A DNA stretch of 42,673 nucleotides from Phycisphaerae bacterium (GTDB lineage: Bacteria; Planctomycetota; Phycisphaerae; Sedimentisphaerales; UBA12454): positions 1-42,673 of the forward strand of contig JAPLMW010000071.1 in assembly GCA_026386845.1 (NCBI GenBank), read 5' to 3'. The notes below the pieces were generated by a model, which saw only the letters and a list, made by a program, of their open reading frames with translations, made no database searches and had not been told where the DNA came from. Shown here piece by piece: positions 4,424 to 38,587 of the stretch (position 1 is its first letter; each line of letters opens with the position of its first letter). The translations under genes were made by a program, and so were the position numbers.

Positions 4424-4461
4424 GACGAATAAAAAAAAATAAATTGCAGAGAGGCAATCCA

Positions 4462-4932
4462 ATGTCTATTATTCCATATATGCAAAAACTTTTAGCATAT
4501 ATGATAACGTGGACTACATATGGCACATGGCTGCAAGGCGATGAAAGAAGATATGTCAAAGACGGACAAACCCTTGACCCTAATCCAAACCTTAAAAAAT
4601 CAAACCTATCATCACTTAAACAACAAACAACAAAACTTACACCCCAACAAAAAACTACAGCACAAAACGCAATCCTCGAAGAAGCAAAAAGAATCAATCA
4701 TAAAATTCATGCCATCGCAGTATATTCCAACCACATACATATCGTCGCAGAAAATAACCATACGCCAATAAACCAGATGGTTTCAAGATATAAAAATGTC
4801 GTAACAGCAGTGTTAAAACGAACAGGATTCAACGCCAAATTGTGGACAAAAGGATATGATAAAAGATTCTGCTTTACAGAAGAACAGTTAAAACAAAAAA
4901 TAGAATATGTTAATAAGCATAATATTCAATAA
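4462..4932 (+). CDS. REP-associated tyrosine transposase (RAYT, Y1 family)
   Basis: This 156-residue single-strand DNA transposase belongs to the IS200-like Y1 superfamily. The N-terminal strand reads ITWTTYGTWLQGD, typical of the REP-associated branch. The HUH metal-binding pair is H91-I-H93 in SNHIHIVAE, and Y110 in the following helix is the likely nucleophile. The start chosen is the ATG at 4462, with AGAGG 8-9 bases upstream; a TTG at 4444 is an alternative. RAYT proteins bind and cut REP hairpins and are thought to spread them. Here a matching hairpin lies on each side, one about 40 bases before the start and one beginning 4 bases after the stop. The base composition is much more A-rich than neighbouring genes, consistent with transfer. 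Confidence 0.88.
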   Translation: MSIIPYMQKLLAYMITWTTYGTWLQGDERRYVKDGQTLDPNPNLKKSNLSSLKQQTTKLTPQQKTTAQNAILEEAKRINHKIHAIAVYSNHIHIVAENNHTPINQMVSRYKNVVTAVLKRTGFNAKLWTKGYDKRFCFTEEQLKQKIEYVNKHNIQ

Positions 4933-9468: not shown

Positions 9469-12400
9469 ATGCAGCCGAAAAATCAATCCGAGAAAATTCT
9501 CCGGACTTCAGTGCCGGTTCGCAAGCTTGAGCCGCTTAAGGGCGGGGGCGGTTTTTATCTCGGCATTGATGTTGGCTCAACGAGTTCTGATATTGTTGTG
9601 CTTGACGGACAGCAGCAAATTGTTTACAGCAGTTACAAACGCACAAAAGGCAAAGCCGTTCAAACACTCATTTCCCAGCTTGAGGAGTTTTTTAAAGTCA
9701 TAAGCATCGACAGGATAGAGTTTGCCGCCGCTACAGGCTCGGCATCGAGACCGATAGCGTCGCTGCTTGAAATTCCTTATGTCAATGAAGTTTCAGCTCA
9801 AGCGACGGCGATTGCACAATTGTATCCGCATTTCAACCAGGCGACGGTAATCGAAATGGGCGGGCAGGACAGCAAACTTATTTTTCTACGAACGGAAAAA
9901 GGACGATTGGTATTGACGGATTTTGCGCTCAATAGCGTCTGTGCGGCCGGAACAGGTTCGTTTCTTGACCAGCAGGCCCAGCGGTTAGGCGTTAATATCG
10001 AAGATGAATTTGGGAAAATGGCGCAGTCGGCAAAAAATGTTCCGACTCTTGCCGGCAGATGTTCCGTTTTTGCAAAAAGCGATATGATTCATCTCCAGCA
10101 GCAGGCTACGCCGGCTGAAGAAATTATCGCGGGATTATGTCTTGCACTTGCCAGAAATTTGAAAAGCAATCTCGGCAAAGGCAGGGAATTTATAAAGCCG
10201 ATAATTTTTACCGGCGGCGTCGCGGCCAATATCGGCGTGGTAAACGCAATGGAGCGTGCGCTATGTTTGCAGGCCGGTCAGCTTATAGTCCCTAAAGAAC
10301 ATTTCTTCACCGGCGCAATCGGAGCGGTGCTTGCCGCAACTAAAGACAGCTGTAAATTAAAAATTGATAAGTTATATGAGTATCTTAATTCGCAGGCGAG
10401 CAGTCTCCAAAAAGCTCCGCGTAAAGAGCCGCTTTCAGAACCTTTTTTTGATGTGCCGCAGAGGAATATCTGCCGATTGTCCGCGGACAATCGGGTTGAG
10501 GCGTATCTTGGCGTGGATGTCGGCAGCATAAGCACAAATGTTGTTGTGATTGATAGTCAAAAGAATGTTCTTGCAAAGGCTTATCTTATGACGGCAGGCA
10601 GACCGCTTGAGGCCGTCAAGAAAGGCCTGCAGATGGTTACGGAAGAAATTCGCGGCCGAGTCGAGATAAAAGGCGCAGCAACGACAGGTTCCGGCAGATA
10701 CCTGACAGGCGATTTTATAGGCGCCGATATCGTGATAAACGAGATAACCGCTCAGGCGACCGGCGCCGCTATTGTGAGTCCTGCGGTTGATACAATTTTT
10801 GAAATCGGCGGTCAGGACAGCAAATTTATTTCGCTTAAGGATGGCGTTGTTGTTGATTTTGAGATGAATCACGCCTGCGCAGCGGGAACAGGTTCATTTC
10901 TCGAAGAGCAGGCGGAAAGGCTCGGCATAAGCATAAAAGACGAATTTGCCGCTCTCGCTTTTCAAAGCACATCGCCGATAAAGCTTGGCGAAAGATGCAC
11001 CGTGTTTATGGAATCCGACCTGCTCGATTATCAGCAGCAGGGCGCCGGGACAAAAGACCTTGTTGCGGGACTGGCCTATTCGATAGCAACCAACTATCTC
11101 AATCGCGTTGTCGGCAGAAGAAAGCTCGGCGATAATATCTGTTTTCAGGGAGGGACGGCATTTAACAAAGCTGTCTGGGCGGCATTTGAAAAAATTCTCG
11201 GCAAACCTGTTCGTGTGCCCGACCATCACGAGGTAACCGGAGCGCTCGGCGCCGCCGCGATTGCAGCGGACTTCATAAAAAAACAAAGAGAGCAGAAACC
11301 ATTTGTTTCGAGCAAATTCAGAGGCTTTGAAAATCTCATCGGGATTGAATACGAGGTCGAGACGTTTGCCTGTGAGCATTGCTCGAACACCTGCGAAATC
11401 AAGAAGGTTAGTCTGCCTGATTGCGAACCGTTATATTACGGCTCCCGCTGCGACAGGTATAATGTATCAAAGGTGAAGAAACCCAAGAGGATTGCGCCTG
11501 CTTTTGAGTATCGCTCACAGATGCTGCGGCGTTTTGCACAGCTTGACCCCGCACCTTCTGAATATTCGAAAAATTTAATACAGAGAAGGTGCGGGGTTGA
11601 CGATCAGGCAGAAAGTAAACGTAAAGAAAAAATCGGAATACCGCTGGCGCTTGTAAACTACCAGTACCTGCCCCTGTTCAGCGTGTTTTTCAAAAATCTG
11701 GGCTTTGATCCCCTTATAACTTCCCCAACCGGCCGGTCAACTGTAAAAAAAGGCGTCGAATCGGTAACGGCCGAGCCTTGTTTTCCGGTTAAGGTCGCAT
11801 TCGGACACATCGCGGAACTTATTGAACAGGAAGCAGACTATATTTTTCTGCCGAGCATCGTAACTCTTGAGAACGTATTTGAGCTGAACAAAACATCGAA
11901 GCTCTGCCCTTATGTTCAGTCACTGCCGTATCAGATAAAAGCCGCATTTGCCGACAGACTGGGCAAAACGAAGATTCTTTCGCCTGTTATGCGGCTGGGT
12001 GAGGGCCGAAAAGAACTTCTGAAAAGTTTTCTGGGTCTTGCCTCGCAGTTGAGAGTAAAAGCGGCCCTGGCAAAACGGGCGTTCGAAAAAGCTCTTGCCG
12101 CACAAAAAGCCTTTGAGAAAAGTCTTATCGAAGAAGGCGGCCGGATATTATCTTCGATTAAGGCTACCGAAAAGCTGTTTGTGCTTGTCGGCCGGCCCTA
12201 CAATGGCTGTGATTCACAGATAAATCTCCGTCTGGCCGACAAACTCGCAGAGCTTGGGGTTATTATGATACCGATGGATATGCTTTCTGTTGCTGATGCA
12301 CCGGTGAGCGATGAGGATTTGCACAGCAGCATTTATTGGGGCTGGGGCCAGAAAATTCTGAGAACCGCTGAGATTATAAAGCGAGACAAACGATTATTCG

Positions 12401-31284: not shown

Positions 31285-32106
31285 TTAAAATTCTTTTGCC
31301 AGCATAATGCCTGTAGCAGAACCCCTGTGAGGAGCAATGAGTGGCAGTATTTCAAAACCTGCAAGTTCAAGTTTTTTATTTTCGCCGGCTACGGCATGTC
31401 CCACTACGTAGCCTAAAACTCCGCCGAAAAGAACGTCGCTCGCCCAGTGGTCGCCGGAGTCCATCATTCGATAGCCCACGAAACCGGCAAGCAAATAAGC
31501 CGGGATGCCCACTTTGGGTCCATAAAATTCATCAAGCACTGACGCGACGCAGAAGGAGCTTGCGGTATGTCCGCTCGGCCATGCCCAGCTTTTGTCGTTT
31601 GGAGTATCGTTGTTAACTATGCCCTTGAGTATCAGCGTCGTTGCGCCGGTAACTGCCAGCGCCCTTGCCATTACCCAGCTTCGCTGAATATTTAAATCAT
31701 CTTTTTTGTAGGCGGCTATCCCATACCAAATACCTGTAGCCGCGAAATGAATACCGGGATTGCCGGCTATATCCGTGAAATTGTCCAAATCGTGAGGCAG
31801 CGAGCGATGGTCTTTGAAGTTGTCCGCAATTTTGTCATCGGCATGCGAGTCGTGCAGCGCGATGCTTCCGCCGCCTGCCATAAGAATCAGCAGCAGATTA
31901 TTGCTGTTGAAATATGTTTTTTGCGCATCACTGAAAGCCGTTTTCGGAAATACTTTCGCATCCTGCCAGAAATTACCGGTTGCGCGAATCGGCGCGTTTG
32001 GGTCATTTACATCATTCGGCTCGATTGAAAAGGCCGGAAAACTGAATATGCAGATTAAAAATAAAAACTTCAAAGCTGAAATTTTAAATCTTAAATCCAT
32101 TTTCAT
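31285..32106 (-). CDS. PAP2-family phosphatase with signal peptide
   Basis: The protein (273 residues from the ATG at 32106; ATG codons at 32112 and 32100 are alternatives) opens with a signal peptide ([16 protein letters not shown]). It contains the PAP2 motifs PSGHTASSF and the later [20 protein letters not shown], with His and Asp of the acid-phosphatase site. It probably acts on lipid or undecaprenyl phosphates outside the inner membrane. The first motif is weak ([11 protein letters not shown]). The start ATG overlaps the guaA stop as ATGA, which suggests translational coupling to guaA. Confidence 0.8.
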
Positions 32107-33644
32107 TCCCATTCAATTGTTGAGGGCGGTTTTGATGAAATATCATAGACTACGCGGTTTATTCCGCGAACTTCATTTATTATTCGGTTTGCAATCAGGC
32201 CCAGCACGTCATAAGGAATCCTCGAAAAATCGGCCGTCATAAAATCATTCGTATCTACCGAGCGAATCGCAATAACGTTTTCATAGCTTCTCTCGTCGCC
32301 CATTACGCCGACGGTCGCCACCGGCAAAAGCACGGCCAGAGTCTGCGAAACTTTTCTGTATAGGCCGGCAGCCTTAATCTCGTCAATGAGTATTTCGTCA
32401 GATTCTCTTAGGACCTTAAGTCTTTCTTCTGTTATTTCTCCGATAATTCGCACGGCAAGACCCGGCCCCGGGAACGGATGCCGCCAGACGATTGCCTCCG
32501 GCAGCCCTAAATATTCGCCGACGAGGCGAACCTCATCCTTGAACAAATCCCGCAAAGGCTCAATCAGTTCAAAACCCAGTTCAGCCGGCAAACCGCCGAC
32601 ATTATGATGAAGTTTTATATTGGCGGCCAGGTTGCCGTCTTTATTGCCTGATTCGATTACATCAGGATATAATGTTCCTTGTGCGAGATATTTCGCATTG
32701 GGTATTTTCTTTGCCTCGGACTTGAAGGCCTCGATAAATTCGTACCCGATTATTTTTCTTTTCTTCTGCGGGTCCGTAACGCCCTTTAGAGCGGATAAAA
32801 ATTGTCTGCTCCAGTCAACTACGTGCAGGTCGATGTGAAAATGGTCTTTGAATGTGCTTTCAACCTGCTGTCTTTCGTTTTTCCTTAACAAACCATTGTC
32901 AACAAATATACATTTAAGCCTGTCTCCGACGGCCTTATGGACAAGCGTCGCTGTTATAGCCGAATCTACTCCGCCGGACAGTCCGCACAAAACGGTGCCG
33001 GTTTTCGCCTGATTGCGGATTTTTTCGATTGTCTGCTGGGCAAAATCTTTCATTTGCCAGTCGCCGCTGCATTTACAGATGTCATACAGAAAGTTTTTCA
33101 TCATTATATCGCCTTTCGGCGTATGACTAACTTCCGGATGAAACTGCAGACCGTAAAACTTTTTGTTTTTATTCCGCACCGCTGCGTAAGGGCAGGTGTT
33201 TGTTTTTGCAAGTGCGTCGAAGTCTTTACTGACGGCCTCGACCTGGTCGCCGTGGCTCATCCAGACTGTTGCGGTATCGCCGACGCCTGCGAATAAATCT
33301 TTTGAATCGGTGATTGTGATAGTCGCTCTGCCGTATTCTCTGCTCGCAGCCTGTTTGACTTTTGCCCCCAGTATCTTGCATCCCCACTGCATCCCGTAAC
33401 AGATGCCCAGAACCGGAACGCCGAGTTCGAAGATTTTCTCATCGGCCGTTGGCGCGTTCGGTGCATAGACGCTTGCCGGCCCGCCGGAGAGAATTATACC
33501 TTTGAGGTTTTTTATTTTCGCAAGCTCTTTTGCCGAAGCGCTCGGCCGGCAAATTGTCGAATAAACGTTATGTTCACGAACCCGCCGCGCAATTAATTGA
33601 CCGTATTGACTGCCGAAATCAATGATGACTATTGTTTCGTTCAT
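32103..33644 (-). CDS. guaA: GMP synthase (glutamine-hydrolysing)
   Basis: GuaA converts XMP to GMP. The glutaminase domain shows GICYGMQ with the catalytic Cys and FHPEVSHT; the ATP-pyrophosphatase domain shows [11 protein letters not shown]; the dimerisation end reads [16 protein letters not shown]. The 513 residues are the usual length. It lies 12 bases after guaB on the same strand, so IMP to XMP to GMP is encoded as one operon, probably driven by the promoter at 35329-35356. Confidence 0.97.
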
Positions 33645-33656
33645 AGTCTTTCTGAA

Positions 33657-35206
<1,550 letters not shown>

Positions 35207-35213
35207 AAGTCGA

Positions 35214-35330
35214 TTAGTCCCGTTAGAGACTTCCGACAACGGTCAGGATTGACAGTTGCAGGTATCATAAATGCTTTGTTTCTAATGGGACTGGCATCAA
35301 GCTGTAAAGCTTTGTCTCTAACGGGATTAG
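35214..35330 (-). mobile_element. MITE-like palindrome, type B, forming the guaB leader
   Basis: TCCCGTTAGAGAC (from 35218) and GTCTCTAACGGGA (to 35326), 109 bases, with TTAG on both sides (35214-35217, 35327-35330). A second, imperfect right end lies inside (35273-35290, 16 of 18 bases identical to 35309-35326), so the element is composite. Confidence 0.85.
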
Positions 35331-35356
35331 TATAATGACTTTAACCTGACAGTCAA
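35329..35356 (-). promoter_or_regulatory. guaBA promoter between two mobile elements
   Basis: On the minus strand TTGACT (35356-35351) and TATACT (35334-35329) are 16 bases apart. The -35 box overlaps the TCAA target copy of the type C element and the -10 box overlaps the TTAG copy of the type B element. Transcription would start inside the type B element. Confidence 0.65.
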
Positions 35357-35470
35357 CCCCGCACCTTCTAAATATTCAGAAATATATTTTTGAAAAACCA
35401 TAAAGATAATAGCTTGATATATCATATATATCAAATGCGAAAATCGAATAAAAAGAAGGTGCGGGGTCAA
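35353..35470 (+). mobile_element. MITE-like palindrome, type C, upstream of guaB
   Basis: CCCCGCACCTTCT (from 35357) and AGAAGGTGCGGGG (to 35466), 110 bases, with TCAA on both sides (35353-35356, 35467-35470). The core is AT-rich. It has the same length as the copy at 36463-36572, and the two share the first ~20 and last ~13 bases only. Confidence 0.85.
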
Positions 35471-35499: not shown

Positions 35500-36228
35500 T
35501 TATGGCTGTTTTTTGCAGAGATTTATCGCTTCAGCGAGGTTTATTGTGCCTTCGTAGAGTGCTCTGCCGACAATGGCCGCGGAAATCACCTTGGTTTCGG
35601 CTAGTTTCGTAATATCCTCAATGGTTGTTACGCCGCCGGCCGCGATAACAGGCAGGTTTACAGCTTCAGCCAATTGTTTGGTTCTTTCGATATTTGGCCC
35701 GGCCAGCATACCGTCCCTGTTTATGTCTGTGTAAATAATCGCTGCAAGCGGAAGCTGGGCGGCTTTTTTCGCAAGTTCGGTAATTTCCAGCGAGCTGTCC
35801 TTTTTCCAGCCATCGGTTGCGATTCTGCTTCCTCTCGCATCGAGGCTCAGGACGATTTTGCCGGCAAATTCCTGTGCGACTCTGCCGAACCACTCAAAAT
35901 CGCTTACAGCCTTAGTGCCGAGGATTACTCTTGTAACTCCCATATCGAGTATTTTTGTGATGGAGTCTCTGTCGCGGATGCCGCCGCCGACCTGGATTTT
36001 TAACCCTTTTGCCTCCTGGACGATTTGGCGAATCGTATCGGTATTGACGCATCTGCCGATTTTTGCGCCGTCAAGGTCGATTATGTGCAGCCATTCGGCG
36101 CCGGCATTGCGGAATTCAATCGCCTTTTTGGCAGGGTTATCTTCGTAGTTTATGTAGCGGTTGTATTCGCCTTGTATAAGGCGAACGCATTTGCCGCCGA
36201 GGATATCTATTGCAGGAATAACAAACAT
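35500..36228 (-). CDS. hisA: Phosphoribosylformimino-AICAR-P isomerase
   Basis: HisA performs the Amadori isomerisation in histidine synthesis. The barrel reads FVIPAIDILGGKCVRL with the catalytic Asp, LQVGGGIRD, VILGTKAV, VLSLDAR, IYTDINRDGMLAGPN with the second Asp, and VIAAGGVTTIEDI. The ATG at 36228 is chosen over the GTG at 36234 because AAAGGA stands 7 bases before it. The protein then has 242 residues, normal for the family. No other his genes lie here. Confidence 0.95.
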   Translation of the reverse strand: MFVIPAIDILGGKCVRLIQGEYNRYINYEDNPAKKAIEFRNAGAEWLHIIDLDGAKIGRCVNTDTIRQIVQEAKGLKIQVGGGIRDRDSITKILDMGVTRVILGTKAVSDFEWFGRVAQEFAGKIVLSLDARGSRIATDGWKKDSSLEITELAKKAAQLPLAAIIYTDINRDGMLAGPNIERTKQLAEAVNLPVIAAGGVTTIEDITKLAETKVISAAIVGRALYEGTINLAEAINLCKKQP

Positions 36229-36571
36229 TTCCACGTCCTTTAAAAATCTGACTGATTTTAGATGGATATTAACCGTCTTTCAAGGTCATTTTTTATAAAT
36301 TTTAGAACCGTTAAAAACTTAAAAAATCGCCTATTTCCGCCTAAAATACCGCGGTTTTGCGTAATAGAATTGAAATTCCGTTGACCTTATGCCGATGATT
36401 GTTATAATAAACTGTTTAATTATCTCTAACGATTCAGGCAGAAAGGGCCAGCAGCCAATGAATCCCGCACCTTCTAAATATTCAAATTTTTGATATTGTT
36501 TTATTGAGAGACGAAATGAAAAATAGCATTATAAAAGGTTTAAACAGAATTAAACATAAAGAAGGTGCGGG
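36229..36571. other. Divergent region between hisA and ackA
   Basis: About 340 bases without a gene. It contains the ackA promoter (36381-36408), the presumed original ackA leader (36409-36458) and a type C element (36463-36572). No clear hisA promoter was identified. Confidence 0.7.
36381..36408 (+). promoter_or_regulatory. Promoter of ackA
   Basis: TTGACC (36381-36386) and TATAAT (36403-36408), spacer 16. It lies 50 bases before the place where ackA began prior to the element insertion. Confidence 0.6.
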
Positions 36572-36576
36572 ATGAA
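36459..36576 (+). mobile_element. MITE-like palindrome, type C, at the ackA start codon
   Basis: TCCCGCACCTTCT (from 36463) and AGAAGGTGCGGGA (to 36572), 110 bases, with TGAA on both sides (36459-36462, 36573-36576). The last A plus TG of the target copy forms the ackA ATG. Its right arm carries AGAAGG, 5 bases before the start, as a possible ribosome-binding site. Removing it rejoins CCA to ATGAAAGTT. Confidence 0.88.
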
Positions 36577-37832: not shown

Positions 37833-37944
37833 TGGATCCCGTTAGAAATCGTAAATAGAGAAGAGAAGATTTCTGATGGGACAAAATCTTGCTAAGATAA
37901 CAAAATATTTAGAGCGCAAATTTAAGGATTTCTAACGGGATGGA
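37833..37944 (+). mobile_element. MITE-like palindrome, type B, at the start codon of the PilZ gene
   Basis: TCCCGTTAGAAATC (from 37837) and GATTTCTAACGGGA (to 37940), 104 bases, with TGGA on both sides (37833-37836, 37941-37944). A second imperfect right end is inside (37867-37881). The last A plus TG of the target copy makes the ATG of the next gene. The old ATG remains upstream (37832) and now opens an 8-codon ORF that ends in TAG. Confidence 0.88.
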
Positions 37945-38587
37945 TGTTCCTCAGATAGAAAAGCTCATTTCAGAGGCGATTGCCAATCGTCCGGTTGCGA
38001 CCGCTGCCCCGCTGAATCTTTATGTTTATAATGGCAGAGTCATCTGCGGCGCAAGGGCCGTTATGCCTAAGAATGCAAGATTCATATCTCATATCACCCC
38101 GCAGATCGTTGAGCATGGTTTTAGCGAAAGCGACTGGAAGGCCGTTGTTGAGAAGGCGTTGTGGATTTCGAAGGATTCTTCCAGCAGCCCCGTTGAAAGC
38201 GGAGATTTCAAAGAGCGCCGAAGAGAGCAGCGTCTCAAATTAGGCGGCAGTGTCTGGTTTAATTCTGATGGCGACGGCAGGACACTGCGAGGCCAGTTGG
38301 TTGATGTAAGCAGCAGCGGCATGGCGTTTACCTGTTATAACAATAGGACTATTCCCGCCCGCGGCCAGCAGATAACCGCAAGATTTTCAGTGCCGTTTTT
38401 TACGCCCGATGGCGTTATTCAGGAAAGAAAATTCACTCGCACGGCGAAGATTTGCCGCATCAGCGGCCCCGGCAGCTATCTCAAACGCATAGCCGTCCAG
38501 TTCGCAGAACCCTTACCTTTCAGACCAGCCGAGCAGGACCACTTGCCCGACGCCGATGTAACTGTTATTTCCTCCACCCAAAGCTGA
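37940..38587 (+). CDS. PilZ-domain protein
   Basis: The 215-residue protein has an unassigned N-terminal part (about 1-85; PQIEKLISEAIANRP, FSESDWKAVVEKALW) and a PilZ domain (about 92-195). The c-di-GMP motifs are visible: the Arg-rich RRREQRLKL and DVSSSGMAF (D-x-S-x-x-G). It probably senses c-di-GMP and adjusts surface, motility or polysaccharide functions. The ATG used overlaps the edge of a MITE-like element and is followed in frame by the natural second codons; AAGGA inside the element is 11 bases upstream, weaker than the original AAAAGG site it displaced. Confidence 0.82.
   Translation: MDVPQIEKLISEAIANRPVATAAPLNLYVYNGRVICGARAVMPKNARFISHITPQIVEHGFSESDWKAVVEKALWISKDSSSSPVESGDFKERRREQRLKLGGSVWFNSDGDGRTLRGQLVDVSSSGMAFTCYNNRTIPARGQQITARFSVPFFTPDGVIQERKFTRTAKICRISGPGSYLKRIAVQFAEPLPFRPAEQDHLPDADVTVISSTQS

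Follow-up and report, generated by a model that had tools for sequence, protein, structure and literature searches.

Two MITE-like elements of different families at the guaBA promoter of a Sedimentisphaerales bacterium, with the promoter boxes rebuilt by target duplication

The analysed DNA, hereafter the window, is a whole stretch of 42,673 nucleotides (contig JAPLMW010000071.1) from the 2.4-Mb draft genome (96 contigs) of an uncultured planctomycete, whose nearest named relatives are metagenome-assembled genomes of the Sedimentisphaerales/Phycisphaerae. The genes hisA, guaB (IMP dehydrogenase) and guaA (GMP synthase) are located on its minus strand, and the guaB promoter is placed between hisA and guaB (table 1). 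The Rfam search of the window gave no matches.

Table 1. Features of the hisA-guaB-guaA region in window coordinates
Feature	Position	Strand	Remarks
guaA (GMP synthase)	32103..33644	-	Pfam GATase and GMP_synt_C
guaB (IMP dehydrogenase)	33657..35126	-	Pfam IMPDH 7e-160
Repeat-like palindromic tract, native part of the guaB leader	about 35163-35203		Partial copies elsewhere; absent here in relatives
Target duplication ATTAG, outer copy	35213..35217		Flanks the type B element
Type B palindromic element, 109 bp (usual copy 65 bp)	35218..35326		Inverted repeat TCCCGTTAGAGAC / GTCTCTAACGGGA; 36 genome copies; empty site in L032 and L033
Target duplication ATTAG, inner copy	35326..35330		Minus-strand CTAAT, of which CT closes the -10
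guaB promoter TTGACT-16-TATACT	35329..35356	-	Direct reading; conservation across the order
-10 box TATACT	35334..35329	-
Spacer, 16 nt, GTCAGGTTAAAGTCAT	35350..35335	-
-35 box TTGACT	35356..35351	-	Direct reading
Target duplication GTCAA, inner copy	35352..35356		Reads TTGAC on the minus strand, bases 1-5 of the -35
Type C palindromic element, 110 bp	35357..35466		Inverted repeat CCCCGCACCTTCT / AGAAGGTGCGGGG; abuts the -35 box; 39 genome copies; empty site in L032 and L033
Target duplication GTCAA, outer copy	35466..35470		Flanks the type C element
hisA	35500..36234	-	Pfam His_biosynth 5e-78; upstream gene, same strand as guaB

An earlier sequence-only reading had placed a minus-strand TTGACT-16-TATACT upstream of guaB, and direct reading agrees with it base for base (35356-35329). 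By chance, 0.01 occurrences of TTGACT-N15-19-TATACT are expected in the window. Upstream of the orthologues, 63 of the 71 distinct guaB regions collected at order level contain this promoter, that is, conserved -35 and -10 hexamers of sigma-70 type with 16-17-nt spacing. The exact form TTGACT is found in 15 of the 63, and TATACT in 36. Judged by this conservation, the guaBA promoter is real and old. It is probably still in use, with transcription starting from it.

The promoter is framed by two palindromic elements of different families. The type B element starts three bases beyond the end of the -10 box and forms the 5′ part of the predicted leader. The 4-bp duplications TCAA (35353-35356 and 35467-35470, around type C) and TTAG (35214-35217 and 35327-35330, around type B) are perfect, as the sequence-only reading had them, but the duplications behave as 5-bp tracts (GTCAA and ATTAG). 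The overlap of the -35 with a TCAA copy and of the -10 with a TTAG copy is exact in its coordinates. In fact, one copy of the type C duplication makes up the entire TTGAC of the -35, and the -10 ends in two bases (CT) of the type B duplication. The spacer had been regarded as the only unique DNA left; its 16 nt are non-duplicated, but the non-duplicated DNA between the elements amounts to 21 bp (35331-35351). Both elements fold strongly (type C, -37.3 kcal/mol, z -6.2; type B, -39.9 kcal/mol, z -6.1).

Comparison with relatives, the check that had been suggested, revealed the site before insertion. In G009 (L032) and G006 (L033), which belong to the same family, the region reads TTTGACT-16-TATACTAATCGACTTAAA with both boxes intact and neither element present, and the exact sequence of this empty site is ...TTTCTTTGACTGCTGGGCTAAAATCATTATACTAATCGACTTAAAC.... 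When a single copy of each duplication is kept, the flanks of the occupied site give the relatives' arrangement, save one extra T upstream. The empty site in two relatives shows that both insertions took place and that neither box was lost; because the site is exact, each duplication must have regenerated the box that it touched. This insertion history is close to certain. It provides a clean natural case in which mobile elements landed twice in the promoter of a core biosynthetic operon with its boxes unbroken and an empty site at hand for comparison.

The explanation that is preferred here, and that as a whole, with its expected effects on expression, is very probable, is that MITE-like elements from two families, both palindromic and non-autonomous, independently entered a pre-existing sigma-70-type guaBA promoter that is conserved across the order. 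The target of type C was TTGAC in the -35 box, and that of type B was CTAAT, which overlaps the end of the -10. The duplication spans about 5 bp in each case, and the copy facing the spacer regenerates the box, as the empty sites show. Both families take 4-5-bp targets often coinciding with expression signals (ATGAA start codons, TTGAC), and such signals can be spared by the insertion.

The genome copies of table 1 are non-redundant and were read from stretches around matches, with two mismatches allowed per arm and a length of 30-160 nt. Matches to the 12-mer arms numbered about 40 per strand, and reversed-pattern controls gave 2-8. Type C copies are mostly 50-118 bp long and type B copies mostly 65 bp. 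Exact 4-bp flanking duplications were found in 30 of 41 type C pairings (shuffled mean 9.8, maximum 18) and in 25 of 43 type B pairings (shuffled mean 3.2, maximum 10), with 5000 shuffles in each case. When only exact copies are counted, the match extends to a fifth base on one side in 72/75 (type C) and 26/28 (type B), with binomial probabilities of 1e-15 and 1e-5, respectively, against an assumed background of 55%. The duplication is therefore best described as 5 bp.

The termini T/C-CCCG...CGGG-A/G are common to both families (end sequences CCCGCACCTTCT and CCCGTTAGAGAC), which suggests that types B and C use related transposition machinery. In the predicted folds, type B in its usual 65-nt form makes a three-way junction, and type C a long hairpin. 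A conserved promoter inside type C was not supported, since the best sites vary in place and sequence among copies. Outside guaB, a general rule placing C/G-ended type C copies on -35 boxes was not supported either, with only weak candidates (e.g., L073 and L078).

The -35 site of guaB is occupied at the same nucleotide in three lineages, by two element families, that is, in three of the 63 promoters. Besides the 110-bp type C of this genome, a short type C in G008 (L125) ends at the same TTGACT, with its outer duplicate degenerate (TTGT). The third case, L140, is located well outside the genome's own family on the guaB tree and carries a type-B-like element at the same TTGAC with a clear TTGAC duplication. 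On this tree the occupied state needs three changes, and at least two of them are forced by well-supported branches. The insertions of this genome and of G008 differ in length and interior, and both are placed in a part of the tree without resolution. Two independent insertion events are firm, and three are likely.

Upstream of the -35, the ten bases are 74% A/T in the 60 promoters that are free of elements, with A/T at -6 in 60/60 and at -7 in 57/60. Element sequence (e.g., GGTGCGGGG) takes the place of this block in each of the three occupied promoters. In this genome the type C insertion shifted the block 110 bp from the -35. The earlier claim that the duplicated bases left the promoter intact thus stands for the boxes, which the empty sites show to be rebuilt, but not for the displaced A/T-rich block. 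The position of the block is where an UP-element-like contact would be, and a lower strength of the guaBA promoter is predicted for this reason; that the displacement weakens it is a fair prediction.

The promoter core would still fire, and transcription would start inside the type B inverted repeat. A strong stem-loop of about -40 kcal/mol would then form the 5′ end of the guaBA mRNA, separated by more than 80 nt from the start codon of guaB. At such a distance from the ribosome-binding site, it would affect mRNA stability or the rate of initiation more than translation. The whole leader folds much more stably than its shuffles (z -4.0). It had been described as element sequence by now, which holds for the 5′ part formed by type B, but a native remnant and the repeat-like tract are also present. 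In the guaB leader of G001 (L037), another inverted-repeat insert (TTGTAACACTTTAGCCGA ... TCGGCTAAAGTGTTACAA) is located just after the -10.

These leader structures, the insert of G001 and the occupation of one site by two families in three lineages would all fit a reading in which both elements are now regulatory parts of guaBA, kept for tuning expression via the type B 5′ stem-loop and the type C upstream region. However, an element occupies the -35 in only three of 63 promoters, the inserts have only the CCCG end in common in sequence, and the preference for TTGAC targets could account for the recurrence. A structure conserved across lineages is not part of the support. This reading is rather unlikely, and the same applies to any regulatory benefit of the insertions.

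The displaced A/T-rich block would also be in line with the bracketed promoter being a relic, with guaBA transcription now initiated within type C or reading through from hisA. On the minus strand, type C contains TTGATA-17-TATTAT (35434-35406), which has 10 of 12 consensus bases and the same score as the native promoter, and read-through is possible from hisA, which precedes guaB on this strand. For these reasons, the conserved promoter may no longer be the principal one. On the contrary, both native boxes are unmutated and in forms common in the order, where a dead promoter would drift, and type C copies do not share the internal promoter. A relic is thus unlikely, and insertion into a promoter that survived is preferred.

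By structural definition, types B and C are palindromic MITE-like elements, for which no parent insertion sequence was found in the searches below. They are short, non-coding and present in many copies, they have terminal inverted repeats, and their target duplication is matched by a single-copy empty site both at guaB (L032, L033) and at ackA (L267). Single-strand HUH insertion is not known to leave target duplications. It is improbable that types B and C are REP/REPIN-like repeats mobilised by a transposase of the IS200/IS605 type (RAYT/TIRYT) and not MITEs of a DDE-type insertion sequence. In favour of this reading, they are strong palindromes of high copy number, five Y1 transposase matches occur in this genome (one in the window) and RAYT genes flanked by long inverted repeats have been described (PMC3733652). 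However, the Y1 genes detected across the five genomes that were searched are not flanked by type B/C inverted repeats, the target is truly duplicated at the flanks and present once in the empty site, and in place of an unpaired GTAG/CGTC tag at the hairpin foot, T/C-CCCG is paired with CGGG-A/G beside the duplicated target.

At 12 Y1 loci (G000, G004, G006, and G008) there was no type B/C pair, only lone matches with two mismatches. The Y1 match of the window (4444-4932, IS200-like) is weak and without flanking type B/C inverted repeats. No autonomous element with these repeats was detected by an exact or one-mismatch search for long-range pairs in the draft genomes G000-G012, nor did an order-wide exact scan for such pairs give any. 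Among IS1380-type transposases no partner of the repeats was found, and two exact patterns had no match in viral contigs.

A literature search did not find the type B/C inverted repeats described as elements, nor any report linking a MITE with Sedimentisphaerales or of start codons rebuilt by bacterial MITEs; types B and C are apparently two undescribed families. They resemble the bacterial MITEs Correia/NEMIS, RUP, Nezha, and ERIC in being short, non-coding and multi-copy, with terminal inverted repeats, target duplication and strong hairpins, and often adjacent to genes; a Correia element, for instance, immediately follows the mtrCDE promoter (review PMC10969869). They differ from these in sequence, in a duplication of about 5 bp, in targets like ATGAA and TTGAC and in that no parent insertion sequence was found; moreover, the majority of type C copies coincide with a start codon to the base, and their inverted repeat includes a ribosome-binding motif.

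REP/REPIN and TIRtron repeats (RAYT/TIRYT), known from Planctomycetes as well (PMC3733652), are likewise palindromic, multi-copy and extragenic, but types B and C have true target duplications and were not found flanking Y1 in the genomes searched. The pneumococcal BOX, RUP, and SPRITE are also small interspersed hairpin repeats, of which BOX can encode start codons (PMC3049150); they favour convergent intergenic regions, whereas type C favours gene starts.

In this genome, 27 of the 39 type C copies and 9 of the 36 type B copies abut an ATG that opens an ORF of 60 codons or more. At these type C copies, the ATG is rebuilt from the last base of the element and the duplicated bases. Where a type C copy combines a TGAA duplication with T/A ends, it is on a start codon in 20 of 21 cases. 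Start codons make up about 30% (6/20) of the noncoding-or-start ATGAA sites of the window, and against this background the binomial P is 5e-10, a rough value since the background comes from a single window. In four relatives, 43 of the 60 listed type C pairings are on start codons, a few of them being alternates of one element. A Pfam scan of ten ORFs downstream of type C showed mostly whole genes with domains near the N-terminus, and two had no match.

The guaB case points to this wider habit of the elements, which sit on the starts of the core genes ackA, trpB, murF, acpS, and an hldE-like gene. The copy at ackA (36463-36572; with flanks 36459-36576) ends in ...AGAAGGTGCGGGATGAAAGTT, and its last A with the duplicated TGAA makes the ackA start codon, which is present without the element in the empty site of G007 (L267). 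At murF (L029, around 1500), type C has split the ATGA stop-start overlap of murE and murF, which is intact in several relatives; the murE stop was kept and the murF start rebuilt. Before the ATG of trpB in G009 and G008 (L292, L294), only the type C right arm AAAGAAGGTGCGGGATG is left, as if the hairpin had been lost and the ribosome-binding part kept.

Four bases before the ATG, the type C inverted repeat contains the ribosome-binding motif AGGTG, which is paired with the left arm in the full element. This motif is complementary to CACCU of the 16S rRNA. We tentatively propose, with somewhat less than even confidence, a mobile family that prefers expression signals, above all ATGAA starts, and is built for silent insertion: A with TGAA would remake the start, AGGTG would be supplied and TTGAC would remake the -35, guaB being the promoter version. 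The location of type C on start codons would reflect either targeting of integration or selective retention. This habit makes the evolution of signal-preserving insertion by small elements directly testable.

Some further repeats were observed in the window. A type B element (37833-37944; 104 bp, duplication TGGA) sits on the start codon of a PilZ-domain ORF (37940-38587). Two copies are found inside long ORFs, in frame and without stops, namely a type B (2016-2080) in a FAD-linked oxidase (+69 bp) and a type C (11547-11596) in a BcrAD/CoA-activase (+54 bp). A perfect 26-nt inverted pair, CGTCGCCGTGCCGGCGACGGCTAAAC, is located at 429-454 and 1853-1878, and a similar stretch, CGTCGCCG...CGGCGACG, is found upstream of ackA in L267.
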